Virus record (IMG/VR): IMGVR_UViG_3300046811_000135
Span: 1-23,340 of that record
Reading direction: 5' to 3' (one strand)
DNA length: 23,340 bases
Origin: a virus
Part shown: positions 2,646 to 19,132 of the stretch, one piece after another
How the letters are laid out: every line of letters starts with the position of its first letter
Numbering within the stretch: position 1 is the stretch's first letter
Made by a program: the position numbers and the translations under genes
The notes under the pieces: model-generated
What the model saw: only the letters and a program-made list of their open reading frames with translations
The model's database searches: none
Told to the model about the DNA's origin: nothing

Positions 2646-4388
2646 TTATGCCGTCTCAATCCCCACCGTGATCATGCCCGCCACAAAGACGCCGCCGGCA
2701 ATCACGAAGTAGGGCCCACCAATCGCCGACGGGGGCGCCACGACGATAAAGCTGGCGCCCAGCCAGCCGGTATTCTGGCTCGCATCGATCATCCGCGGTC
2801 GAATCGGCAACGGCTCCGAGGGCTGCCGGAGCCAGCCGAAGGACTGGGCCGGGAGTTGGGTCGGCTCCAGCGGTCGGACGGTCAGCGACTGCGCAAGCCG
2901 CTGGATCGGCGGATTCGGGACGTTCGCCTGCACGAGCCAGGTCATCGTGAAGCGCTGCGAATCCGTGATGAGCGGCGCAACCGTGGCATCCAGCGGCACG
3001 AAGCGGCGCACGGGCAGCGGCGCCGGCGAGGGCGTCAGCCAGCCTATCGCCTGGTCGATCTGGAAGGGGGCTAGCGGGAGAACCGTCTGCGTCTGGGCGT
3101 ACTTCGCCAGCGGACGCAGCGGATCGTTGATCCGGACGAACCATTTATCGACCGTGATCGAGGCGATTGCCTGGGGCGGCGCCTCGCTCGGATTCTGCGG
3201 TGGATAGGCCCGGCGCGGCAGCGGCAGCGGATCCGGCAGCTGGATCGACCAGCGCGGGAAACCGGCTTGAACCAGGTCGGGGAAGATCGTAAACGACATT
3301 CCGCCCGTGCCCGGCGGCAGCCGCTTCACCGGGATCGCTTCGGGCTGCTGGCGATACCAGGAGATCCCCGGCGTCGGCGTGTAGAGCGACGGCTCGGCGA
3401 GGTTGTAGGTGGAACCGCCGGCGATCGTCGGCACGAAGCGGCGCGGGGCCATCTCGGACGAAACCATGTACTGGGCGCCCATCGGCAAGCCGCCCGTGAG
3501 GTAGGAAATCGTCACGCGCACGGCATCGACCGCAGCCGATCCTCCGAACTGCGTCCCGATGACCGCGAGGGCAACGCCGAACGTGGCGGAATTAATGTCG
3601 CTCGCATTCCAGCCCAGCCCCCACAGATCCGAGAGGCCGCCGTAGCTCTGGTAGGCGAGGGCGACTTGCTGCCAGTTGCTGGCCGCCGACCTGTCCTCGC
3701 TGCCGATGACGCCGCCCTTGATGACGCGCACGGCGAAGTCGGCGAGTGTGTCATTGCCGACCGGGTTACTGTTGAACCTCTTCCATTCGACCAGAATGCC
3801 GCGGATCGTCGCGGTTGCCGGTATCGCAAAGCCAAAGTTATTCCCGATGAGCCAGTTGCTTACGACGTTGCTGCTGATGTTGATTGTTGCCGAGCTCCCA
3901 TCGTCCGCCGTGATGCGCGACGGGTTCGACCAGGGAAGGTCGCCGATGCTGGTGTCGTTCGAACCCGTGCCCGCGATGGTCGGGCCTATGTTCGTGATCG
4001 TCTGCGGACCACCTGGGAACGGATCCCCCTGCACGAACACGGGCGGCGCGATCAGGTGCGAGGCCCCGCTGGGCAGGACCTTCGCCAGCGGCCGCAATGG
4101 ATCATTCGTCTGCCGAGCCCAGGCCGCGAATCCCTCAAATGGCAGGCCCGTTACGCCACCCGGCACCCAGTTCCCGCCGATGTCCGGATTGAGCAGCCGA
4201 GCCTTGATCGGTCGCGGCGCCTCATTCGTCGGCACGGCCCAGGCCATGCCCGAGCCAGCCGTAACGAAAGGAAGGTTGATCTGCAGGAGATGTACGGGCG
4301 TAGCGCCGCCGCGGTCAGCCAGCCGGGGAATCGGCGGGGGCGCGGCGTTGCCGAAGAAGTCGTAGTAGGCGGTCCCTTGCAGGGGCAT
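2646..4388 (-). CDS. Large W/P/R-repeat virion protein with inserted beta-sandwich domain
   Basis: This is a protein of 580 residues, starting at the ATG at 4388 with a GGGG-type site upstream. Two kinds of sequence alternate. The first is a degenerate repeat of about 34-40 residues centred on Trp followed by Pro and basic residues; examples start near W50, W90, W344, W380, W416, W450, W484 and W519 (such as WARQTNDPLRPLAK, WFVRINDPLRPLAK, WLTPSPAPLPVRR). The second is a beta-sandwich-like domain at about residues 130-297 with ATIRGILVEWKRF, YGGLSDLWGLGW and a final AVDAVRVTISY. The C-terminus is hydrophobic and Gly-rich (IGGPYFVIAGGVFVAGMITV). It is probably a virion surface or fibre-like protein. 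The function is inferred from repeats, beta domain and location among structural genes. Confidence 0.7.
   Translation of the reverse strand: MPLQGTAYYDFFGNAAPPPIPRLADRGGATPVHLLQINLPFVTAGSGMAWAVPTNEAPRPIKARLLNPDIGGNWVPGGVTGLPFEGFAAWARQTNDPLRPLAKVLPSGASHLIAPPVFVQGDPFPGGPQTITNIGPTIAGTGSNDTSIGDLPWSNPSRITADDGSSATINISSNVVSNWLIGNNFGFAIPATATIRGILVEWKRFNSNPVGNDTLADFAVRVIKGGVIGSEDRSAASNWQQVALAYQSYGGLSDLWGLGWNASDINSATFGVALAVIGTQFGGSAAVDAVRVTISYLTGGLPMGAQYMVSSEMAPRRFVPTIAGGSTYNLAEPSLYTPTPGISWYRQQPEAIPVKRLPPGTGGMSFTIFPDLVQAGFPRWSIQLPDPLPLPRRAYPPQNPSEAPPQAIASITVDKWFVRINDPLRPLAKYAQTQTVLPLAPFQIDQAIGWLTPSPAPLPVRRFVPLDATVAPLITDSQRFTMTWLVQANVPNPPIQRLAQSLTVRPLEPTQLPAQSFGWLRQPSEPLPIRPRMIDASQNTGWLGASFIVVAPPSAIGGPYFVIAGGVFVAGMITVGIETA
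2799..3359 (-). repeat. Tandem W-P-R repeat block within the 580-aa protein
   Basis: This stretch encodes residues 344-530, holding six consecutive repeats with spacing of 34-36 residues between the Trp anchors. The consensus is W, five to seven variable residues, a Pro/Leu-rich core and then Arg or Lys. Two further copies lie at about 4077-4250, on the other side of the beta-sandwich. At DNA level a near-identical tract recurs near 3103-3125 and 4080-4102 (CTTCGCCAGCGG followed by one or two changed bases and GGATC), suggesting that the repeats arose by duplication. Confidence 0.7.
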
Positions 4389-4402: not shown

Positions 4403-4693
4403 TCAGGAGGCCCGGGAGACAATGGGGCGGAAGTCGAGCGGGCGGCCCTTTTCGATGTTTTCGCAGAGCAATTCTTGGGGAATACAGGCCGTGCCGGCGA
4501 TGCAGTTCGGACCGCAGGTGACCTTGTGGCAGATCCTGCAGACGCCTCGCAGCCGGCCGCTACCGGGAGACACGACCCAATGGCCGCCGCAATGCCCGCA
4601 CTGCAGCGTGTCGGCTTCCCTGGTGCCGTCGGGTCCGGTCACGATGGCATAACCGGCGGCGCGGGTCGCGGTGTGCTGCTTATCGCCTGCCAT
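4403..4693 (-). CDS. Small phage zinc-finger protein (Cys-rich)
   Basis: This is a protein of 96 residues. Of two ATG codons (4705 and 4693), 4693 is preferred because GGGGGAT lies just before it, while 4705 directly follows a terminator U-tract. Cysteines and histidines cluster in the middle: CGHCGGHW, then CRICHKVTCGPNC, then a further Cys pair (GTACIPQELLC). This layout of a treble-clef-like knuckle followed by CxxC...CxxxC, with a polar N-terminus containing YAIVTGPDG, recurs in small proteins among phage head genes. The metal binding is evident from the residues; the role (virion component or small nucleic-acid binder) is unknown. It is followed by the 580-aa repeat protein 14 bases downstream. 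Confidence 0.7.
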   Translation of the reverse strand: MAGDKQHTATRAAGYAIVTGPDGTREADTLQCGHCGGHWVVSPGSGRLRGVCRICHKVTCGPNCIAGTACIPQELLCENIEKGRPLDFRPIVSRAS

Positions 4694-4705
4694 GGCATCC
4701 CCCAT

Positions 4706-5025: not shown

Positions 5026-5481
5026 TTACTCCTCCCAGGAAATCGAGGTATCGGCCGCCTGCGTGCTCGTGGACAGAAGCGAGCGAACGCCGATGCCGTT
5101 GCTGGCGGTCGCCGGGCAGACGATCTCATAGCCCGGATTCACGATCCAGCGGAAGGTCGCGCGCTGGTTCCAGGTGAACAGCAAGAGGTTACTGCTCGCC
5201 GTGTAGGTCGGCTCGACGCTGAACACGCCCTGATTGAACACCGCAAGCGAGGCCGGGTCGCCCGGGTCCAGCGCAATCGGCGTGAACGTGCCGCCGGGCG
5301 TGCCAACGGCCGTGAACCGCAGCACGGTCATTTGTGCGGCCTGGTCGGCCGGCGTCGCTTCCGAGCCGACGAGGATTTCGTAGACCTTGGGCCGGATCGT
5401 GCTGGCGGACTGCACGCTGCCCGTGGTCTTGTTCGTGCCCGTGGCCACGGTGGCGGCGATGCCCGTATACTTGCGTCCCAT
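5026..5481 (-). CDS. Beta-rich phage structural protein (151 aa)
   Basis: The ATG at 5481 is preceded by AGGAAAGGA at ideal spacing. The protein starts MGRKYTGIAATVATGTNKTT and is dominated by Thr, Ala and hydrophobic residues in beta-type alternation. It includes TIRPKVYEILVGSEATPAD, LDPGDPASLAVFNQG, LLLFTWNQRATFRW and a Gly-rich end (NGIGVRSLL) closing with a Trp-Glu-Glu tail. I recognise the style as that of small virion proteins in tailed-phage genomes ('rp.iydl.vgs.atpaD' and 'NQRatfRW'), probably a decoration, fibre or tail-associated beta-sandwich. No specific family name can be given. A clear ribosome site and isolation from neighbours suggest strong expression. Confidence 0.65.
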   Translation of the reverse strand: MGRKYTGIAATVATGTNKTTGSVQSASTIRPKVYEILVGSEATPADQAAQMTVLRFTAVGTPGGTFTPIALDPGDPASLAVFNQGVFSVEPTYTASSNLLLFTWNQRATFRWIVNPGYEIVCPATASNGIGVRSLLSTSTQAADTSISWEE

Positions 5482-5537: not shown

Positions 5538-6032
5538 TTATCGGTGGCCGGCGATCAGATTCTTGGTCATCCGGGCCATCTGGATCTGTTGCTGCTCGGC
5601 GCGGGCTTCCATCATGTACAGGTTTCGCTGCATGGCCGCGTTCGAAATCCACAGCATCGCGTGCCACTCGTTCAGCGTGATCAGTTCGCCACCTTCCCGC
5701 GTGACCACGCCGTCCGCGTGCAGTTGGAAGGTTACTTCCTTGTCGGTCCAGTCCGGCTCCGCGTCCGGGCACGTCTCGCGCATCATGACATCGGCTTTCG
5801 CGGCGAGGATCGCCCAATCGTGAAAGGTGACGTCATTCCGCTGCAGCAGTTCCGACTGTCCCTTGACGAGTCGGATGCTGACGCTCTTGCTGGGCAGTTC
5901 GATCCCGTTCGGCTGCTGCTGTTGCTCCTGCATGAACGCTCCTGGATGACAGTGCTTCAGCTTCCTGCTGCTGCCGCATGGGCAGGGTTCATTCCGGCCG
6001 ATCCTTCGTCCGGGGTTTGTGATCGATCCCAT
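5538..6032 (-). CDS. SEC-C zinc-motif protein (alternative short start at 5933)
   Basis: This protein has 164 residues. Residues 12-30 form a textbook SEC-C motif (GRNEPCPCGSSRKLKHCH), a zinc-binding element known from SecA and many small proteins. The rest is alpha-rich and hydrophilic, with a Gln-run (MQEQQQQPNG), a DWAILAAKADVM helix and a C-terminal helix rich in Met and Gln. The ATG at 6032 lacks a good ribosome site, whereas the in-frame ATG at 5933 has AGGAG seven bases upstream. A 131-residue form without SEC-C is therefore also likely. The SEC-C part overlaps the last 76 bases of the glycosyltransferase-like gene in the -1 frame. Function unknown. Confidence 0.7.
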   Translation of the reverse strand: MGSITNPGRRIGRNEPCPCGSSRKLKHCHPGAFMQEQQQQPNGIELPSKSVSIRLVKGQSELLQRNDVTFHDWAILAAKADVMMRETCPDAEPDWTDKEVTFQLHADGVVTREGGELITLNEWHAMLWISNAAMQRNLYMMEARAEQQQIQMARMTKNLIAGHR

Positions 6033-6760
6033 TTGTACCGAAGGTCCTCGTCCTGCTTGTAGCTGCCCCAGGCCTTGTTATTCGAGAAGCGCCATTTCCC
6101 TTCGTGGTGGATCGTCACCCGGCGGCTAATGGCACTGGGCAGGCCCAGTTCGTGGACCTTGCGGGAAAAGAACCAATCCTCGCTCTCGTCAATCGTGTCC
6201 CACTCGCCGGCCGCGTTGCGGTAGTTCTTTTCCCTGAATTCGAAATGGGCTATCTGGCCGCCCTCGCTGTCCGTTTGCCGCCACTGCGGGAATCGCAGAT
6301 CCGCGATCCAACAGCCGTTATTGTGCAGGAGCATTCGCCCCGGGTAGCCCAGCGTCGCCGCGTCGAAGACGGGGGGCTGCTGCATCAACTCGGTCGCCGT
6401 CAGAAGCCGGAACGGCGTCCACGGGTCGTTCTCGTCGCCGAGCCCACAGCTCATCTTGCCCCGCGGATCCTTGATCGCGATCGGCACACTGAGCAGGGCG
6501 AGATTGTACTGAACCACATCCTCAATCAGCGGATCGAGCCAGCCGTAGCAATTGGGGAACGTGTCCGTATGCAGCATGGCGAACAGTTCCCGCTCGCCGC
6601 GCTCGAAAGCATTGTTCCCCTCGCACCATGTCTTGTTGAAGTTGCCGACCGGCCTGCAGGAGCCGAATACTTTGACGTCGTGGTTCAGGGATGCGTGCTC
6701 GATGAAGTCCCAAAGCTCCATCGGAACGACCAGACCCGGAACCCCGAGCATCACTTTCAT
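5957..6760 (-). CDS. Glycosyltransferase-like phage protein (GT-A type)
   Basis: This is a protein of 267 residues. The ATG at 6760 forms an ATGA overlap with the preceding gene. The order of motifs resembles short GT-A glycosyltransferases: an N-terminal strand (MKVMLGVPGLV), HTDTFP at about residues 64-69 in the place of a nucleotide-sugar-binding segment, LLHNNGCWIADLR at about 144-156, then SEDWFFSRK at about 193-201, the 'ED.(w)f' acceptor/catalytic signature, and a C-terminal VTIHHEG. The exact sugar and acceptor cannot be read from the sequence. A role in decorating virion proteins is inferred from its location among structural genes. It overlaps the SEC-C frame at its 3' end. Confidence 0.65.
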   Translation of the reverse strand: MKVMLGVPGLVVPMELWDFIEHASLNHDVKVFGSCRPVGNFNKTWCEGNNAFERGERELFAMLHTDTFPNCYGWLDPLIEDVVQYNLALLSVPIAIKDPRGKMSCGLGDENDPWTPFRLLTATELMQQPPVFDAATLGYPGRMLLHNNGCWIADLRFPQWRQTDSEGGQIAHFEFREKNYRNAAGEWDTIDESEDWFFSRKVHELGLPSAISRRVTIHHEGKWRFSNNKAWGSYKQDEDLRYKWDRSQTPDEGSAGMNPAHAAAAGS

Positions 6761-7335: not shown

Positions 7336-7992
7336 TTACGGGAGAATCGCTTCCACTTCGTCCCAGTTCACGGAGAGCATGTAGTTGCCCGTCGCGACGC
7401 CCAGCACGCCGATCACCAGGGCGAACTGAGAGGGCACGATGAACGGATGGGAGGCGAGATCCACGCTATAGCCGACGCTCGTGGTCGTTGCGGCACCGTG
7501 GCCGATGCCACCCAGACACGTCCAGATGCCCTGCACCACGGTCTGAGCCGCCGCAATGAACCCGACGGGGGTTGCGGCGCTACGGCTCGCCTGCGTGGCA
7601 AAGTTGGCGCCATTCGCTGTCAACGGCGTGGCGAGTTTGCCGCCGGTCACACCGGCGAACAGAGTCGAGCCGGTAGCGCCCAGCGTGCCCGAGCCGTAGC
7701 TGAAGGAGAGGCGACGGACGACAAGCACCTTGGTTCCGCTCGAAGGCGTCGAGTTGAATAAGACGACGGGGCCCGTGGTGGTCGGCAGGTCGATGATCGC
7801 GGCCACGGCCCCGGCGACGGCGCTCGTGCCACCCTGGAAGGAACGGCCCGAGCGGGCCATTTCGAAGCCAACCGGCTCGAGCTGGGCCAGGCGGGCATTG
7901 CCGAGGTTGGACATTTCTTCGACAAGGCCCTGACCCGAGCCGGTCGATTTGAAACTGATCGTCGTTACTTGTCCCTGGATGGGATCGGCCAT
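7336..7992 (-). CDS. Virion protein, paralogue B of a tandem pair
   Basis: This is a protein of 218 residues. The ATG at 7992 follows AAAGGAG and a spacer nearly identical to that of paralogue A at 8739. It starts MADPIQGQVTTISFKS and ends WDEVEAILP; the homologue begins MADPIQPQ and ends WDEVEAVLP. Shared central motifs are FEMARSGRSF, LSFSYGSGTLGA and HGAATTTSVGYSVD. The composition is beta-rich with Gly, Thr and Ser, consistent with a jellyroll or beta-sandwich virion component such as a decoration, spike or tail-associated protein. About half of the aligned positions are identical to paralogue A, and the main differences lie in the middle. The exact structural role is unknown. Confidence 0.7.
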   Translation of the reverse strand: MADPIQGQVTTISFKSTGSGQGLVEEMSNLGNARLAQLEPVGFEMARSGRSFQGGTSAVAGAVAAIIDLPTTTGPVVLFNSTPSSGTKVLVVRRLSFSYGSGTLGATGSTLFAGVTGGKLATPLTANGANFATQASRSAATPVGFIAAAQTVVQGIWTCLGGIGHGAATTTSVGYSVDLASHPFIVPSQFALVIGVLGVATGNYMLSVNWDEVEAILP

Positions 7993-8039: not shown

Positions 8040-8059
8040 GTAGTCCGTCCGTGGACTAC
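8040..8059 (-). other. Stem-loop at the end of paralogue A
   Basis: A perfect 7-bp stem (GTAGTCC pairing with GGACTAC) with a six-base loop covers the stop codon of the gene at 8056-8739. No T-tract follows, so it is not a standard terminator. It could be a 3' mRNA-stabilising or processing structure. Confidence 0.4.
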
Positions 8060-8739
8060 GGGAGAACGGCCTCGACCTCATCCCAGAAGACGCTCATCAG
8101 GTACTTGGCCGTGGTGCCGGTATCGGCCAGCACGCCGAAGTTGAGCCCGAAGCCCGGCGGCACGATGAGCGGCGAATTCGAGATGTCCACCGTGTAGCCG
8201 ATGCTCATCGTGGTTTCCGCCCCGTGAGCGATGCCACCGAACAGGGCGAGGGCCGCACCCGAGGGGAAGCCGGTTTTCGCGGTATCCATGAAGGCAACCG
8301 AGGCGCCCGTGCCACGGGTAGCACCGATCGAGAAGCCGGTGCCGTTGGCGGTCAGGATACAGTTGCCGGTGACGGCGGAGGGCGAAACGCCCGCGAAGAC
8401 GGACGAGCCGAACGCGCCCAGCGTGCCCGAGGCATAGCTGAACGAGAGCCGCTTGATCACCAGATGGCGCGGCGGGTTGTTCGCCGGGTTCGCGGCGTTG
8501 TACAGGATGTGCTTCGCCGTCGTGGTCGGCAGATCCACGAGCGGAATCGTGCCGTTCGTGACGGCCTGGATGCCGCCACAGAAGCTCCGGCCGCTGCGGG
8601 CCATCTCGTAGCCCGGGGCCTCGAGCTGGCAGTAGCGCTGGGCGCCCAGGTTGGTCATTTCCTGGAAGACGGAATTGCCACCCGAGCCAACGCTCTTGAA
8701 GGCGACCGTGGTTACCTGGGGCTGAATGGGGTCGGCCAT
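8056..8739 (-). CDS. Virion protein, paralogue A of a tandem pair
   Basis: This is a protein of 227 residues. The ATG at 8739 follows AAAGGAG at good spacing. It begins MADPIQPQVTTVAFKS and ends FWDEVEAVLP. Core motifs are YEMARSGRSF, LSFSYASGTLGA, then GGIAHGAETTMSIGYTVD and a C-terminal IVPPGFGLNFGVL segment. It matches paralogue B across the whole length with several small gaps, so a gene duplication is clear. Composition (Gly, Ser, Thr, Ala, beta alternation) and position soon after the major capsid gene suggest an abundant virion surface or decoration protein. A hairpin precedes the gene and another covers its stop. Confidence 0.72.
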   Translation of the reverse strand: MADPIQPQVTTVAFKSVGSGGNSVFQEMTNLGAQRYCQLEAPGYEMARSGRSFCGGIQAVTNGTIPLVDLPTTTAKHILYNAANPANNPPRHLVIKRLSFSYASGTLGAFGSSVFAGVSPSAVTGNCILTANGTGFSIGATRGTGASVAFMDTAKTGFPSGAALALFGGIAHGAETTMSIGYTVDISNSPLIVPPGFGLNFGVLADTGTTAKYLMSVFWDEVEAVLP

Positions 8740-9274: not shown

Positions 9275-10453
9275 TCAGGTGTCGTTCTTGGTCAGCTTGC
9301 GGGGCTCGTACATCTGCCCCACGCCGCGGTAGCTGACCTTGTGACGCGCCCAGATGTCCTGCTCGAATTCGGCCTCGCTGTTGCTGGCGGCCTGGGTCGC
9401 TTCGATGTCCCAAACGCTCATCCACAGAATCGCGGCCTTGAAATCGCCGTAGAACCACTGCGACGTCGAGCCCGTGCGGGCCTTCACGTACTGGTTGCTC
9501 AGCACCTTCGGCTGGCGGTCGCTGTAGGGATTCTTGCCCGTGGTGCGGATCGTGGTCGTCTGGGCTCGCATGTCCACGGTCTGAACTTCGGTCGCGCCGA
9601 CGATGCGATTCGCCGTGCGGACCAGGGCGGACGGAACCAGGATGGTCGGATTCGCCGGGATGCCGATGGGCTCGCCCGTGTTCGGATCGGTCATCGCGTC
9701 GAAAAGCAGATCGGCCTTCTCGAGGGCCCGCCATTCGTTGGCCTGGCCGTCGAGGGCATTGCCGGTCTGGCTGTTGATGTACGCGCCCGACGTGAGGTAG
9801 GTGTTCAGGCTCACGCCGTTGCGGTTGTAGTTGTTCTTCTGGCCGGTCGCGTAATCCAGGACTTCCTTTTCCTTGAGAACGGAAGCCCAGCGGGTGCCCT
9901 TGGACGCATAACTGAGAACCAGGCTCGTGCGGTCGGCGACGATGATTTCGCGCGTGACGGGAACAATGAAGCCATGCTTGATGGTCGCCGCGGTGTCGGT
10001 CCACTCTTCGTTCAGACCAACGTAGGGGTAGCGGGCACCTTCCTCGACGACTTCGGCCTTGTCGCCGATCTGGCCGACGCCCGGGATGCGCTCGCCGTTC
10101 AGGAACTCCGTCGTCTGCGTCGTGCAGAGTTCGGGCCACAACAGCGACGGGTCTTCGTAGGCTTCGCGGATCTTGTTGTAGACGATCTGGCCCGTGATGT
10201 TGCTGAAGTCGCCCGTGGAGACGGCCTGGGCGGCTTCCAGGATCGCAGCCCGGTTGCCACGGCCGCGGCGGAACTGGATTTCGTACAGAAGCTCGCGGCC
10301 GTTCGGGATGAGGGCTTCGAACAGGTCGCGCATCGAGAAGTTTTCGGGGCGCAGCTCTTTCGACTCGAGGCCTTCGCAAAGGTCGGCCATGCACTGCTGG
10401 GGCTCAAGCTCGTACTGCCGCTTGAGTTCCTTGACGTTGATCATCTTGAACAT
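9275..10453 (-). CDS. Major capsid protein (HK97-fold type)
   Basis: This is a protein of 392 residues. The ATG at 10453 follows AAGGA nine bases upstream (an ATG three codons later is an alternative). The N-terminus is helical and charged (INVKELKRQYELEPQQCMADL), the common N-arm and delta-like region. The middle shows capsid-type features: ELCTTQTTEFLNGERIPGVG, an EEGARYPYVGLNEEW stretch, a beta region with HGFIVPVTREIIVADRT and helix KEKEVLDYATGQKN. The C-terminal domain has PNTGEPIGIPANPTILVPSA and ends with a short WARHKVSYRGVGQMY segment. Length, location downstream of protease/scaffold and internal layout identify it as the capsid shell protein. I assign the HK97 fold by position and length. 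Confidence 0.82.
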   Translation of the reverse strand: MFKMINVKELKRQYELEPQQCMADLCEGLESKELRPENFSMRDLFEALIPNGRELLYEIQFRRGRGNRAAILEAAQAVSTGDFSNITGQIVYNKIREAYEDPSLLWPELCTTQTTEFLNGERIPGVGQIGDKAEVVEEGARYPYVGLNEEWTDTAATIKHGFIVPVTREIIVADRTSLVLSYASKGTRWASVLKEKEVLDYATGQKNNYNRNGVSLNTYLTSGAYINSQTGNALDGQANEWRALEKADLLFDAMTDPNTGEPIGIPANPTILVPSALVRTANRIVGATEVQTVDMRAQTTTIRTTGKNPYSDRQPKVLSNQYVKARTGSTSQWFYGDFKAAILWMSVWDIEATQAASNSEAEFEQDIWARHKVSYRGVGQMYEPRKLTKNDT

Positions 10454-12961: not shown

Positions 12962-13494
12962 CCCACACGCTGCAAAAACTCCTGGACGACGCGCAGGCCT
13001 ATCTGCAGGTCCTGTCCGACCGCCTCGAGGAAGAGCATCAGACCGGCGCCGCGACGGTGCGACTGCTGGGCCAGGATCTGCTGCGCATGGTTGCGGAGTT
13101 CGAAAAGCTGCAGGAGTTGGAGATGGTCGCGGGGGATCTGTGGCGGGAATACCTGGCGTCACGGGGCGATATCCCGCCCGGAAACGTCCGTGATGGACTC
13201 CGCGCCCTTAAACGATTCTTCACGCCACCTCGCGAGCCGGGCCGAGAAGGCTGCCCATCATGCGGCTGCTGGTTCTATCCAGATGCCGGGCCATGCGGGA
13301 ATTGCCTCAACCAAGCGAATGCCCGTGCCGCCCGAAGCATCCTCAACCCAGCGGCCTCAGAATCGGCGTCGCATAACAAAGGCAATTCCAGGCAATGTGA
13401 GGCGCCCCCTTCGGACGCTCCGCCGGATCCGCAGCCTCGAGCGGTGGATGAGGTAGCTGGGCCAGCCCCTTCTGCCACGGCTCCGGCTCCTTGA
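12946..13494 (+). CDS. Plus-strand coiled-coil and zinc-ribbon protein (182 aa)
   Basis: The ATG at 12946 follows GGAGGGCGA, an excellent ribosome site. The N-terminal ~80 residues form a long amphipathic helix (HTLQKLLDDAQAYLQVLSDR and LLGQDLLRMVAEFEKLQELE). A Cys-rich ribbon follows (CPSCGCWFYPDAGPCGNC). The C-terminal part is Pro/Ala/Ser-rich, probably disordered. Its final 152 bases run antisense to the 3' end of the minor head gene, a long convergent overlap. That part is read as disorder in this gene and as the conserved C-terminus of the head protein in the other. The plus-strand partner at 12545 overlaps its start. No function is recognised; a zinc-ribbon plus coiled coil suggests a nucleic-acid or protein-binding accessory factor. 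Confidence 0.65.
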   Translation: MSQPVTHTLQKLLDDAQAYLQVLSDRLEEEHQTGAATVRLLGQDLLRMVAEFEKLQELEMVAGDLWREYLASRGDIPPGNVRDGLRALKRFFTPPREPGREGCPSCGCWFYPDAGPCGNCLNQANARAARSILNPAASESASHNKGNSRQCEAPPSDAPPDPQPRAVDEVAGPAPSATAPAP

Positions 13495-14344
13495 AATACT
13501 CCGTCCCGTCCCGCGCGACATGCCACGGCCGCGAATTCGGGTTCCCGTGCACACTGTGAATCGTCCACCCAATCACCAGGTCCCCGAGCTGGTCCGCCGT
13601 CTGCTGCTGGGTGTGGTGGGCGATTGCCATCCCGTAGGTCCGCGCTAGCCGCTTCGCCGAGGTGCGAATCCCTTCCATCGCCGGGCGCAGGTCCTGCGCG
13701 ATCGCTTTCACATCCTTCCCCTGCGAATAACCGAGGCTGATGATCCCGGCGAGGATGTTCGGGCTGAACCTGGCGCTTACCGTGCCCCGTAGCCGCTGCT
13801 CCCAGGTCTGCCCGTTGATCTGCAGCCCGCGCACGATCCGGTAGACGCTGAGCCGGTCAGGGGGCGGGAAGAGGAGCGACTGAATCAGGTTGCGGGCTGC
13901 CGTCTCGTCGGTGGGGATGGCGTCCATGGGCATGTCGATCCGCAGGCCGGCGGCGTCCAGGGCGAACTGCAGCAAACCGGCCTCCATCACATCCCGGCTT
14001 TCGCGGACGCGGTGGACGTTGCCCTTCTGGGCCAGCGCCGCAGCCAGGTAGTTCGCCGGCAGCGTGCGGGCCAGGGCCTTCGCGGAATGCTCGTGGGCTT
14101 CCGTGGCGAGTCCGGCCAGGCCATCCGCAAGGACGGCGTCGAGCGCGGGGAGCGTGCCACGCAGGAGATGCCGGGCCTCCATGAACGCGGTTGCGCCCTG
14201 GGTGTGCGTGCGCAGGATGGACATCAGGCCGCGCCAGACGGCGCCCAAGGCCCTATCGGTGGCGTTGCCGATCCGGTCGGCCGCGGCGCTGGCGGCGAGC
14301 TGGCGGGCGTGGCCGTGGGTGGCGAGTTGGCGGGTGAGGGTCAT
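13343..14344 (-). CDS. Minor head protein, Mu gpF/SPP1 gp7 type
   Basis: This is a protein of 333 residues. The ATG at 14344 overlaps the portal stop as ATGA, indicating translational coupling. The N-terminal two-thirds are helical. The C-terminal region carries the family hallmark: VHGNPNSRPWHVARDGTEYF, then PHIAWNCLCYATPIL, matching the 'R..H...DG...' and 'NCrCy..P' signature of the Mu gpF/SPP1 gp7 head morphogenesis family. Such proteins bind the portal and enter the head early, and some carry toxin or nuclease domains. Here the extra module is on the portal instead. The last 152 bases are overlapped antisense by a plus-strand gene. The family call is strong. Confidence 0.85.
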   Translation of the reverse strand: MTLTRQLATHGHARQLAASAAADRIGNATDRALGAVWRGLMSILRTHTQGATAFMEARHLLRGTLPALDAVLADGLAGLATEAHEHSAKALARTLPANYLAAALAQKGNVHRVRESRDVMEAGLLQFALDAAGLRIDMPMDAIPTDETAARNLIQSLLFPPPDRLSVYRIVRGLQINGQTWEQRLRGTVSARFSPNILAGIISLGYSQGKDVKAIAQDLRPAMEGIRTSAKRLARTYGMAIAHHTQQQTADQLGDLVIGWTIHSVHGNPNSRPWHVARDGTEYFKEPEPWQKGLAQLPHPPLEAADPAERPKGAPHIAWNCLCYATPILRPLG

Positions 14345-17283
14345 TCCTTGATCGGGTGTAGTTTTCCGTCAGCCGAAACGGTCATGACTCGCGCGGGCAC
14401 CTTCTGCCCGGTCTGCATGGCCTTTACCGCGCGATGGTGCCCCTCTTCGATGTAGTCCTTTCCGTTATGCCTAATGACAAGAATCGGCTTATCCTCACGC
14501 AGCGGACCCTTGATGCGGTCTAGCGCATCGCTCAGGACGTTCCTTTGGGTGGCGATGAGGTTTTTTGGATCCAGCTTATGCGTGTGCTCGCTGGAGTTCA
14601 TGGCGTTGTGGCGATCGTTGCTGTTGATGCTCGGGTATGGCTTATTTTCCACTGGAAGCTGAATCGGTATCGCTTTCCGTTCTGGTAAAGACGGATTGGC
14701 TGGGCGCTTAGCCTTCGGTTTTGAAGCCGGCTTAGTGGCCGAAGAAACATCGACGCGCTCAACGGTATTTTGCATCCCGTGAATTCTTCTCGAAATGTGA
14801 TCCAGGGCATCCTTTTTCGATTTGAAGCGGCCAGGAATGCCTAAATCGTTCGCGACTTTTGCGGAATCTTTGACCGAGAGCGTTTTCGCCGCACCCTTAA
14901 TTGCAGCATCGAGAGCCGCGGGGTCCAGGTTTTTCTTGCTCGCGGCGTCAAGGTGTCCGCGGAATGCTGAAGTAGCTTGGTCTATGTTGCTCGGCGGAGT
15001 CGCCGGTTCGCTGGAATTCGCCGGCGGAATTTCTACGTTGTTGAATTCCGACGTGAGATGCTTAATAGAGCTGTCCTGGACTTTCTTGGGGTCGCCCGTA
15101 GCCTGGGGGAGATCGGTTCTCGCTAGGCGAATATCCCCGCGCTGATGCGCCGCCAGAAGATCCGCCTTGAATTGATCGAGGGTCTTTCCGCCAAGCTTTC
15201 CATCGGCTTTCAGCTTGTCGTAAACGTCAAGGATGTGAACCTTGTGAGGCATCCACTCCGGCGCCTCCGCGTGAGGCCGGCCGTTGAAGGCGTTCGGAAT
15301 CTCTTTGCCCGCAGCGTGAACTTCGTCGGCTAGGTTTTTGCCCCCCGGTTCAATGGCCTTCGCCGGCTGTTCCCATTGCTTCGTCTTCCGGTTGTAGACG
15401 GACCCCTGCCGCTTCTGGTGCCGCTGATTCTGCTGCCGCGTCCGAGGCCCGAATTCTTCCTTGGTCGGGTCGAAGGATTGAGCCGCAACGCGCTTGCCGT
15501 TCAGGTAGTGAATCTTCCGCCCGCGCTTATCCGTGATGACCCCCGTGAACCCCGCTTCCAGGCAAACGGCGTCCATCGACTCCAGCAGGGATTCGGAAAC
15601 GGGGCCACTCAGGCCGCCGCCTGAGCCCGGCTGTCCCTCGGGCGGAAGTCCGAACGGCGACGCGCCACCCCCCGCCCCACCCCCCTGCTCGTCCTGATAC
15701 TCCTGGTTATTCGCCTGCACCGTATCCCAATCCAGCCCGCGCTCGCTCGCGCACGTCTGCCGGTCCTTCCACCCGTTCATGACACCCAGCTGATCTTCCT
15801 GGGCCTTCTCCAGCTCGTTGCGATGCAGCACGGCCGGGGCCTCGACGTCCAGGTCCACGACGTCCAGCGTGTCCTTCGGGAGAAGCCCGCACTCCACGGC
15901 CCAGAGGATCGCCTTCCACACGATCAGCCCGAACGCAATCTTGTAGTATTCCTGGTCCGTCTGCCCGGCGCGCACGGCCGGGGCAGCTGCCGATTCCAGG
16001 CTGGAATAATTCCCATTGCTCGCGTCGCCGGTCCAAAATTCCGGAGCGCAGAAAGCCGCGTTCGCCTGGCGGAGATCCCCGCTCACGCCGGACAGATAGC
16101 TCTGCGTCTGATCAGCCGGCGGCGAGGCCAGCTCCTGCCCACCACCCACGCGGCGCACTGTGCCCGGCCGGATCCGCTCCACGTTCTCCGTGTGGCCCGT
16201 GGTTCCGTTGGTGCGCGTGAAGACCTTCACGGCGTCGCTCAGGTCCTGGGCCTGGGCCTGCGTGGCTGTGGTCGATTGCCAGATTTCCGCCGTCGCCGCG
16301 CGGACGGCCGCCCCCATGCTGGCGTGTTTCTGCAGCTTGGCGGCCCGCTCGAGGGCCTTGAGCGTGTCGAATTGGAAAGGGCTAATGCCGCGCTTGACCG
16401 TGCTTGCCGTGTCGAGGCCCTTCAGGTGGACGATCTCCTTCGCGGGGATCATCTCCCAGCTGCCCTTATCCTCGGGCTTGCCGCCCCCGCCACCCTTCGC
16501 GGACGGGTCCGGCCAGAAGGCGGCGTATTCCTCGGGCGTCTCCACGTCCTCGACGGGCTGCATCGAATGGCGAATGCCGACGGACCAACCTTCCTGCGCC
16601 GTGCCGCCGTGCCCTTCCCTGATCTGCTCCGGTTCGATGAAGCGGATGTACGTGCAGCCGTTCTCCTGGTGGAACAGCCGGACGAAGCACTCGCCGTCCC
16701 CGCCGTTCTCCCGCCGGAAGATTTCCCGCTCGCGCGTCATGGCGACGAGCATGTTGCTCCGCGGGTCGATCTGGTTCGCGTTGAAGCGGTTAGAGCGGAG
16801 GAAGTAGTCAACGAACGTCTGCGTTTTTTTCGCAGTGGCTTCCGCCTCGGGCGTCGGATCGTCACCCTTCGCTTTCGTCTTGTAACTGAATCCCTTGCCG
16901 ATGACGTTATTCGTCATGTTCTTGAGCAGGCCGATCGCGAAGCTGTTCGTCTGGCAAAGGATGCGGCTTTGCTGCCGGCGCTCGTCTAGCTCGACCTGCG
17001 TGCGCCAGATGGGCCAGTTGTAGCCGTGCCGGCGGTCGCTGGGGATGTTCGCCGGAACCCAGCGCTCGCCGTCTTCGTCCTGGCTCGAGGGGCGTAGCCG
17101 GTCCCAGAGATCCGAGCCGCCGAAGTCGTCCCACCAACCCCAGAGGCCCTCATAGAGATCGCGTTCGTAGCCGGCCTTCGCCGCGGCAGCCTGGACGCGC
17201 AGCAGCTTTGCCTGCTCCTTCGCTTCGGAGATGGTGGCCTTGATCTCGACGGGCTTTTTCGGGCGTCCGTTCAGGGTTGTCAT
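14341..17283 (-). CDS. Portal protein with a 420-residue C-terminal extension
   Basis: This is a protein of 980 residues; portals are usually 400-600. The ATG at 17283 follows AAGGAAG. Residues 1-530 are a lambda-family-type portal: RILCQTNSFAIGLLKNMTNN near 106-125, YIRFIEPEQIREG, IVHLKGLDTASTVKRGISPF around 285-305, and ASNGNYSSLESA at 421-432. A Gly-rich linker (about 533-560) leads to the extension: a short beta motif (RGRKIHYLNGKRVA), a winged-helix-like segment (about 678-727, VHILDVYDKLK ... FKADLLAAHQRGDIRLART), a SAP/HeH-like segment (about 798-836), a Lys/Pro linker, and a terminal ParB/sulfiredoxin-like segment (about 905-970, KPILVIRHNGKDYIEEGHHRA). The extension is lower in GC than the portal core. 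The portal call is firm; the extension domains are inferred. Confidence 0.8.
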   Translation of the reverse strand: MTTLNGRPKKPVEIKATISEAKEQAKLLRVQAAAAKAGYERDLYEGLWGWWDDFGGSDLWDRLRPSSQDEDGERWVPANIPSDRRHGYNWPIWRTQVELDERRQQSRILCQTNSFAIGLLKNMTNNVIGKGFSYKTKAKGDDPTPEAEATAKKTQTFVDYFLRSNRFNANQIDPRSNMLVAMTREREIFRRENGGDGECFVRLFHQENGCTYIRFIEPEQIREGHGGTAQEGWSVGIRHSMQPVEDVETPEEYAAFWPDPSAKGGGGGKPEDKGSWEMIPAKEIVHLKGLDTASTVKRGISPFQFDTLKALERAAKLQKHASMGAAVRAATAEIWQSTTATQAQAQDLSDAVKVFTRTNGTTGHTENVERIRPGTVRRVGGGQELASPPADQTQSYLSGVSGDLRQANAAFCAPEFWTGDASNGNYSSLESAAAPAVRAGQTDQEYYKIAFGLIVWKAILWAVECGLLPKDTLDVVDLDVEAPAVLHRNELEKAQEDQLGVMNGWKDRQTCASERGLDWDTVQANNQEYQDEQGGGAGGGASPFGLPPEGQPGSGGGLSGPVSESLLESMDAVCLEAGFTGVITDKRGRKIHYLNGKRVAAQSFDPTKEEFGPRTRQQNQRHQKRQGSVYNRKTKQWEQPAKAIEPGGKNLADEVHAAGKEIPNAFNGRPHAEAPEWMPHKVHILDVYDKLKADGKLGGKTLDQFKADLLAAHQRGDIRLARTDLPQATGDPKKVQDSSIKHLTSEFNNVEIPPANSSEPATPPSNIDQATSAFRGHLDAASKKNLDPAALDAAIKGAAKTLSVKDSAKVANDLGIPGRFKSKKDALDHISRRIHGMQNTVERVDVSSATKPASKPKAKRPANPSLPERKAIPIQLPVENKPYPSINSNDRHNAMNSSEHTHKLDPKNLIATQRNVLSDALDRIKGPLREDKPILVIRHNGKDYIEEGHHRAVKAMQTGQKVPARVMTVSADGKLHPIKE

Positions 17284-17545: not shown

Positions 17546-19132
17546 TCATGTGATCAGCCGGGGCGCTCCGCCCCCGGCCTCGTTCTCGCCCTTCGTCAGC
17601 AGGTGCCGCAGCAGCCGCTCGAGCATCTCCAGCGCATCCGGCCCGTCGTCATGATCCCCGTTCGGGAAGTCCCGAAGCTGCTGCACGAGCAAGGCCGCCC
17701 CCGGCGATCGCGACTTCACCCGCAGCTTTCGCTGGCTCAGGTAGGGCCCCAGGCGGCGCACCCGCATCATTTTCGCCACGTTGCCCGTCGGGATGCCATA
17801 GACCGCCACGGGGCGCGGCCGCTTCTTCATCTCGCGGGCGATCTCGATACAGAGCAGCTCCTGGAATTGATCCACTTCCGAGCCCCAGGCGTGCGGATGG
17901 AAGCGGTCGCAGAGGGCGAGGCCATCGCTGACGATCTTCGACGTGTCCCGCCGCTGCAGGTCGGCGTCGAGCCAGAGGACACCGTTCTTGTCGGTGCCGC
18001 CGTAGACGAAGGCGGAGTAATCCCCGTGCTTGGCGTCCTTGCCCTTCGACGGGTCCAGGGCGATCGCCTTCATGACGAGGTTGTCCGGCCAGGCGTCGAA
18101 CCAGAAGGCGGCATGGTCGAAGTATTCCGGGGGCCACTCGCAGGCCTCGGGATTCGTCGGGTCGTTCTGCCGCTCCGAGGCGAAGGCCGTGACGCCGATC
18201 GACACGCGAAGCAGCATCAGGGCATAGAGCGAATCCCGCTCGGGCCACACCACTTCGGCGCCGGCGTCCATGGCCTTCTGGTTCGCGAGGTAGAAGGCTT
18301 TCGCGTTGGCCTGCCGGTCATCGTCGTCGTGGTCCAGCAGGAATTGCTCCCACTCCCGCCACAGGTCCATGCGCTTCGGCCACGAGATGACGGACGTGAA
18401 CAGGTGCGAGGTCCAGCCGGCCCCGTCCTTCGGTGAGTGAAGCCGGCAGACGATGCAGTCTCGATGTAAAGCCGTTCCCAGAGCGATGATGTTCGTGATC
18501 GGGCTTCCCGCGTTCGATACGTCCTTGACCAGCCATTCCCAGGATCGCTCCCGCTGCAGGGCGCTCAGGATGTGCCCGGTGTTCTGGGGATCGTCCACGA
18601 TGATCAGGCTCGGCCGGTGCGATCTGTTCTTCCGTCCGCGTAATTTCGTGCCGGTGCCGATAGCCTCTATCATGACGCCGTTGGCCAGGCGAATCCGATC
18701 CTCTCGCCAGATGGCGCCCCGGCCGCTGAGATGGGCATAGTCCGTGCGGAGCAACTCGTTTGTTTCCAGCTCGGCCCGGATCGCGTCCAGGTATTTGTGG
18801 GCCTGGTCGCCCGTGTCCGAGGTGAGAATGATGTAGGGCTCGATGCCGTGGATCGCGAGGTAGAGCGGGTAGGCGAACGTGGACCAGGTGGACTTTGCCG
18901 CCCCGCGGGGCGCCAGCACGTTCAACCTCTGCCCGCGGGTTCGGTGGAAGTCGCTCAGCCGCGGCACCAGCCAGGCGTGAAATTTGGAGGGAGCGACCGG
19001 GAAGTAGCCAGGCACGTAGCGATAGGCCCACTCACGCAGCGGCGGCGCCGGGATCGGCCGGCTGGTCGCCCGGAGCAGCCGGAAGGCCGCCAGCTGCCCC
19101 TGAGCCTGCTGGATTAACGCTGCGAAGCTCAT
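17546..19132 (-). CDS. terL: Terminase large subunit (ATPase/nuclease)
   Basis: This is a protein of 528 residues. The ATG at 19132 follows GAGG at about seven bases. The N-terminal ATPase has the Walker A motif LAPRGAAKST (about residues 73-82), adjacent acidic Walker B LIIVDDP (about 176-182) and a motif III-like IALGTALH (about 216-223). The C-terminal nuclease shows the first acidic position in IALDPSKGKDAKHGDYSAF (about 357-375), a GSEVDQFQE segment (about 417-425), and the final acidic motif DDGPDALEML (about 495-504). All expected catalytic parts are present. It cuts and pumps DNA into the prohead through the portal encoded downstream. The start overlaps the small-terminase candidate by 101 bases. 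Confidence 0.93.
   Translation of the reverse strand: MSFAALIQQAQGQLAAFRLLRATSRPIPAPPLREWAYRYVPGYFPVAPSKFHAWLVPRLSDFHRTRGQRLNVLAPRGAAKSTWSTFAYPLYLAIHGIEPYIILTSDTGDQAHKYLDAIRAELETNELLRTDYAHLSGRGAIWREDRIRLANGVMIEAIGTGTKLRGRKNRSHRPSLIIVDDPQNTGHILSALQRERSWEWLVKDVSNAGSPITNIIALGTALHRDCIVCRLHSPKDGAGWTSHLFTSVISWPKRMDLWREWEQFLLDHDDDDRQANAKAFYLANQKAMDAGAEVVWPERDSLYALMLLRVSIGVTAFASERQNDPTNPEACEWPPEYFDHAAFWFDAWPDNLVMKAIALDPSKGKDAKHGDYSAFVYGGTDKNGVLWLDADLQRRDTSKIVSDGLALCDRFHPHAWGSEVDQFQELLCIEIAREMKKRPRPVAVYGIPTGNVAKMMRVRRLGPYLSQRKLRVKSRSPGAALLVQQLRDFPNGDHDDGPDALEMLERLLRHLLTKGENEAGGGAPRLIT

Follow-up and report, generated by a model that had tools for sequence, protein, structure and literature searches.

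The window, by which we mean the whole stretch of DNA that was analysed, comprises the 23,340 bases of one virus record. Its minus-strand late-gene block includes terminase, portal and major capsid protein genes and, downstream of the last of these, a 580-aa ORF with an ATG start at 2646-4388. This ORF, the target of the present analysis, encodes tryptophan-anchored repeats (W-repeats) on both sides of a beta-sandwich domain. It is the third gene of a cassette in which 5026-5481, 4403-4705 and 2646-4388 follow one another within 2.9 kb. For the product of 5026-5481, we coined the label MAKYAI. The features of the locus are as follows.

17549-19132, minus strand: terminase
14344-17283, minus strand: lambda-type portal
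13346-14344, minus strand: Mu-F-like
9278-10453, minus strand: major capsid protein
5026-5481, minus strand: MAKYAI, 151 aa, core NQRA[ST][YF]RW, cassette partner (up to 44% identity, E 2.5e-30)
4403-4705, minus strand: Cys-rich putative zinc-ribbon protein, 100 aa, cassette partner (homologues adjoin other W-repeat genes)
2646-4388, minus strand: W-repeat protein, 580 aa, third member of the conserved cassette
4011-4388, minus strand: N-terminal repeat stretch, aa 1-126, with repeats W50 and W90 (pLDDT 30-45, without secondary structure)
4080-4106, minus strand: NDPLRPLAK copy 1, aa 95-103, N-terminal side of the domain
3489-4010, minus strand: inserted beta-sandwich domain, aa ~127-300, with a predicted CBM or galactose-binding-like fold (pLDDT 88-98, fold matches)
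3102-3128, minus strand: NDPLRPLAK copy 2, aa 421-429, C-terminal side of the domain
2754-3488, minus strand: C-terminal repeat array, aa 301-545, with W344, W380, W416, W450, W484 and W519
2649-2753, minus strand: hydrophobic Gly-rich C-terminal tail, aa 546-580, which ends GGPYFVIAGGVFVAGMITVGIETA and, by its sequence, contains no lysine or arginine

An identical copy of the target ORF is present in IMGVR_UViG_3300046788_000219, a 46.9-kb contig; of the 20,453 bases compared between it and the window, 20,452 are identical. Scanning IMG/VR with the target protein alone returned only this copy, and searches of Pfam, PHROGs, NCBIfam and PDB sequences gave no useful match. In L006, the phage whose capsid protein is most similar (55%), no W-repeat gene was seen in the downstream region.

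Other genes of the block also stood out. The portal (980 aa) has a C-terminal extension, aa ~879-969, that matches PF23719 (VapB-like) with an E-value of 7e-6, just under the curated cut-off, which would make it an unusual portal fusion. Just downstream of the capsid gene are two adjacent, similar ORFs of 218 and 227 aa (7336-7992 and 8056-8739) that both begin MADPIQ and have no convincing family match; they are possibly duplicated decoration proteins. The stretch from the capsid gene to the cassette also contains a 267-aa ORF whose sequence suggests a glycosyltransferase, with no match in Pfam or PHROGs (5957-6760), and a SEC-C motif protein (5538-6032, Pfam E-value of 1.5e-7).

Repeats and inserted domain of the W-repeat protein

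The repeats of the target are real, beyond chance. Eight units of the type W-x5-[ED]-P lie on both sides of the domain, with tryptophans W50 and W90 before it and W344, W380, W416, W450, W484 and W519 after it. Their spacing is 40 residues before the domain and 36, 36, 34, 34 and 35 after it, and possible degenerate units without a tryptophan occur near aa 8 and aa 307. Position W+6 is D or E in six of the eight units, and W+7 is P or A in all eight. The strict motif W-x6-7-P-[LIVPR]-[RPI] occurs six times, whereas 20,000 shuffles averaged 0.33 and never exceeded 5. The claim of an earlier note on this DNA that at least eight W/P repeats, spaced about 34-40 residues, flank a domain is confirmed. 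A looser motif, W-x5-8-P-x2-4-[RK], was also found six times (shuffle mean 1.2, P about 0.001). When the chain of tryptophans was tested over the whole protein, P was only 0.03 because the domain has tryptophans of its own. The same note had pointed to near-identical DNA tracts at 3103-3125 and 4080-4102, and these turned out to lie in the codons of the two NDPLRPLAK copies that flank the domain, which are identical at 23 of 27 nt. The longest exact repeat in 1000 shuffles of the target was 6 aa, versus the 9 observed here.

We predicted the structure of the full-length target with AlphaFold, using an alignment that included 32 relatives of the domain. The repeats, which had no alignment depth in this run, received a pLDDT of ~26-45 and no secondary structure. 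A clean array modelled from an alignment of 18 sequences likewise showed no regular structure (pLDDT 53, pTM 0.17). Thus, the description of the protein as fibre-like was not borne out by the monomer prediction, with which an oligomeric fibre is still compatible.

The domain, by contrast with the repeats, was modelled at a pLDDT of 88-98 with nine strands over aa ~130-300. By this model, its bounds are aa ~127-300, compared with 3498-4001 (aa 130-297) for the beta-sandwich-like region first noticed. Its best Foldseek match was 1gny (CBM15, E-value of 1.4e-4), and VIA-align gave Z 9-10 over ~120-143 residues. The structures matched include CBM15, CBM32, CBM4, CBM61 and CBM22 at 3-15% sequence identity, and the fold is confidently predicted to be a CBM-like or galactose-binding-like beta-sandwich. 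At the level of this predicted fold, the earlier suggestion of a carbohydrate-binding-type domain holds. None of the CBM family profiles matches the target (E-values up to 1 in Pfam and up to 0.1 in NCBIfam). Because the fold is common and is shared by non-sugar binders, namely MAM domains, Eph receptor ligand-binding domains and cyclases, it does not in itself establish glycan binding, and the domain is a putative sugar binder.

We used an alignment of three domain sequences to scan IMG/VR and found the domain in 46 further loci, where it either makes up almost all of a ~180-220-aa protein or is embedded in larger ones of up to 2355 aa. A tblastn search also identified it in the 'tail tubular protein A' of the metagenomic podoviruses MW202473 and MW202478. 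Three loci with the same cassette illustrate its various positions: a relative of the domain is directly followed by a W-repeat in L241, forms a separate gene in L252, and in L186 occurs twice, once as a gene of its own some 1.2 kb upstream of the cassette and again inside a 767-aa protein downstream. Judged by these sequence contexts, the domain is a mobile phage module. Since this module sits in a repeat family that is mostly without it, the best reading is that the domain was placed into an older repeat array, as had been proposed from the sequence. The lower GC of the domain, noted at the same time, is true (0.632, versus 0.683 and 0.686 in the flanking repeats). However, GC3 in the domain (0.829) is not below that of the N-terminal repeats (0.80 and 0.869 in the two repeat regions), and the drop sits in codon position 1 (0.531 versus 0.704 and 0.653). 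The drop is an effect of amino-acid composition and not independent evidence of insertion, so we rejected it as a sign of horizontal insertion.

W-repeat proteins and their gene neighbours in other phages

As a lead for the target repeats, we used the W-x5-E-P-V-R repeats (WEPR) of metagenomic phage proteins, to which a relation seemed possible. A two-repeat DNA pattern for these identified 24 stretches in IMG/VR, 22 of which contained ORFs with at least three repeats in register; the remaining two, L074 and L076, had two repeats each. The search for related phage proteins that had been suggested for this DNA thus turned up a large family. Bacterial and archaeal contigs (257 Gb) served as a negative control; none of the 41 matches of the same pattern there was a W-repeat ORF, which suggests that the arrays are essentially viral. 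A target-like DNA pattern matched IMG/VR 57 times, and the target itself was the only W-repeat among these matches. Neither a tblastn search of 50,697 phages with three W-repeat proteins nor one of plasmids with the target gave a match. The repeat, which the earlier note did not recognise, has no model in Pfam, PHROGs or NCBIfam, and a full-text literature search found no paper on it. The repeat family and the cassette described below therefore appear to be undescribed in the libraries and literature searched.

We compared the target units with those of other phages by profile-profile alignment. With hhalign, they matched a profile of 128 W-x5-EPVR units at 81% (P 1.2e-5), while the best of 100 controls, in which columns were permuted with the W fixed, reached 37%. 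Against 210 units of several flavours from other cassette proteins, the match was 59%, with at most 6.8% in the controls (n = 100) and a shared register of W0, [DE]+6 and P+7. As a single sequence, the target scored 4.2 against the WEPR HMM, within the range of shuffled sequences (maximum 5.5), so we call it a divergent relative and not a member of the EPVR subtype. Its relation to the family consequently rests on the profile-profile comparison and on synteny. On this evidence, we consider the target a divergent member of a large phage W/P-repeat family.

Arrays in this family range from 2 to about 15 repeats. Spacing in the WEPR proteins is mostly 34-36 residues (range 31-43), compared with 34-40 in the target. 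The motif is short and strongly conserved and comes in the flavours EPVR, P-T-x-x-P-P and Y-P-D-R; the surrounding sequence and the linkers are variable, and an alignment of WEPR triple repeats was too variable for scanning the collection. Unnamed domains, recognised by reading the sequence, lie between the W-repeats of L063, L233 and L245; a LamG-like identity was considered for those of L233 and L245 and dropped, as Pfam and PDB sequence searches gave no confirmation. The W-x-P-x-[YF]-P-D flavour is found in proteins of up to 1235 aa (L207:7258-10017, L233:8854-12408 and L245:7649-11356), and in L233 as many as 24 tryptophans follow one another at regular spacing. A repeat of another type, ~20 aa long, follows the domain in the tail proteins L003:7944-10205 and L004:7965-9923, and a similar-looking repeat follows a W-repeat in L199:8236-10038, so phages seem to shuffle both their repeat types and their domains.

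The two cassette partners of the target have homologues at the equivalent place in WEPR phages. Using HMMs, we found MAKYAI upstream of the WEPR array in all 11 testable genomes; the twelfth context, L180, was left out as its array starts at the contig end. A scan of IMG/VR for MAKYAI yielded 227 loci. Among the best 79 non-target loci of these, 70 had the Cys-rich gene, which probably encodes a zinc-ribbon protein, at most 2.5 kb downstream, with a median gap of 4 nt, while none of 143 control loci contained MAKYAI or the Cys-rich gene. Strongly periodic W ORFs were found downstream in 15 of 62 loci, versus none among 435 upstream ORFs. The third position is variable: it may hold W-repeat arrays of several flavours, repeats of other kinds or different large proteins, and in many MAKYAI loci no W-repeat gene was recognised in the vicinity. 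The pair of MAKYAI and Cys-rich genes with a highly variable third gene (L191-L270) may be a general marker of phage adhesin loci. Among 50,697 phage records, MAKYAI was found in one, the metagenomic MW202566 (INPHARED). None of the 692 bacterial genomes sampled (398 + 294) yielded it; this set had no positive-control genome, so these are weak negatives.

Pfam matches among 93 downstream cassette proteins included Laminin_G_3 (n = 3) and beta-helix (n = 3), as well as single matches to pectate-lyase-like, GH42M, GH130, BNR, fn3 and DUF2341 families; most of the 93 had no Pfam family. The cassette is found in several settings. In several WEPR phages, it lies between the capsid gene and the SU10-type adaptor genes, upstream of the adaptor and stabilisation genes. 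In L186, the order of MAKYAI, Cys-rich and W-repeat genes is intact, and the cassette lies downstream of the tape-measure gene, beside tail genes. In L213, it lies upstream of the terminase and portal genes. This occurrence in different phage types and gene blocks argues for an accessory role rather than one in core assembly. The capsid coating suggested in the earlier note would be no more than a candidate function, the cassette adjoining head genes in some phages and tail genes in another.

Possible roles of the W-repeat protein

Our preferred reading, put forward with about as much confidence as doubt, is that the target forms an accessory part of the virion with a surface or attachment role, namely an extended multivalent arm that displays a glycan-binding-like domain. 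As the third, variable member of a tailed-phage late-gene cassette, it would consist largely of a long, Pro-rich and probably extended chain with W-x5-[ED]-P-[VLI]-[RP] every ~35 residues, which may serve as a multivalent tether or arm fixed to the virion. The mobile beta-sandwich, inserted after the second tryptophan repeat, would be displayed by this arm and might hold glycans of the host surface or the environment, either ahead of the main receptor interaction or alongside it. An extended arm is suggested by the proline content of the W-repeat chain (16-17%), its lack of a predicted fold and its variable linkers, while glycan display is suggested by the fold of the domain together with the lectin- and polysaccharide-type genes at the locus.

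Some of these features could also be read as a docking array, in which each W-x5-[ED]-P binds one folded partner, much like a scaffoldin with its many enzymes, and the inserted domain merely rides along. The motif, short and strongly conserved where the sequence and linkers around it vary, would fit this, as would the absence of a predicted autonomous fold for the repeats and an array size that changes (2 to about 15) without loss of the linked MAKYAI gene. The partner might be a capsid or tail subunit or the MAKYAI product, and the latter could be the obvious candidate if the motif docks. Conversely, the many MAKYAI loci without a recognised W-repeat gene nearby indicate that MAKYAI is not dependent on the W-repeat protein, and we regard docking as unlikely. 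We also doubt that the protein is a classical trimeric fibre, with repeats that form an intertwined shaft only when oligomeric and a beta-sandwich that binds the receptor as a knob on its side. In favour of a fibre, the period of 34-40 residues is fairly regular, and monomer predictions often do poorly on oligomeric fibres. Still, spacings across the arrays vary from 31 to 43, which is unusual for an intertwined shaft, the pLDDT of the repeats is very low, and neither the target nor the scanned W-repeat relatives matched collagen, beta-helix or S74-chaperone families.

The position of the target among head-assembly genes might instead point to an internal or assembly protein, such as a scaffold, a staple or an ejected internal protein, and assembly factors can contain disordered Pro-rich chains. 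We think this very unlikely: the domain and the Pfam-matched downstream cassette genes are often of lectin or polysaccharide type, which suits the outside of the particle, and the L186 cassette lies in the tail region. That the repeats are Pro-rich low-complexity linkers of no common origin, alike by coincidence, is scarcely credible to us. The single-sequence score within the shuffles and the P of only 0.03 for the whole-protein W-chain would agree with coincidence, whereas the strict motif count, the exact 9-aa repeat, the two profile comparisons that beat all 200 controls and the gene order shared with W-repeat genes elsewhere speak against it.

A broader and, in our view, rather unlikely idea is that of a virion display system in which the W-repeats are docking motifs on a disordered multivalent scaffold, whose gene lies next to those of MAKYAI, its conserved partner, and the Cys-rich protein. 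Phages would swap lectin-like or glycan-active modules on this scaffold, and the system would move between the head and tail gene blocks of unrelated tailed phages. If true, virion display would use a scaffoldin-like architecture on virus particles.

Returning to the cassette itself, the 227 loci with MAKYAI come from uncultivated phages; most of the loci examined have the Cys-rich gene next to it, and many have W-repeat genes downstream. If the cassette is a modular surface-display system, it could serve annotators as a marker of adhesin genes within phage dark matter, and what the repeats dock to would become a simple question open to testing.

Comparison with known systems

The closest counterparts of the target are the WEPR proteins (L057-L080 and L179-L190), which share its repeat register and period, its location in a late structural locus and the upstream MAKYAI gene. 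Like the target, some of them carry other domains before or between the repeats. The repeats of the target are more degenerate, with D/E-P-L-[PR] instead of E-P-V-R, and the N-terminal signature [FW]QYQ-x3-[AE]-P of many WEPR relatives is absent or, in its AYYDFFGNAAPPP, at best degenerate.

Based on the predicted model, the inserted domain has its jelly-roll or galactose-binding-like beta-sandwich fold in common with CBM15, CBM32, CBM4, CBM61 and CBM22, although identity to these is only 3-15% and no CBM family model matches. Homologous domains are found in the 'tail tubular protein A' of MW202473 (34%, E-value of 1e-10) and MW202478 (32%, E-value of 1e-6). There, the domain is followed by tandem repeats of another type, with ~20-aa units and not W-repeats, and unlike the target, the protein runs on into a tail-tubular-protein region.

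As a class, decoration and head-fibre proteins are accessory structural proteins of tailed phages. Such proteins, including phi29 gp8.5, are covered in PMC7602432 and PMC6542822, and we found no sequence relation between proteins of the phi29 gp8.5 type and the target. Modular accessory structural proteins of phages with a sugar-binding-like domain, the general kind to which the target would belong, are already known.
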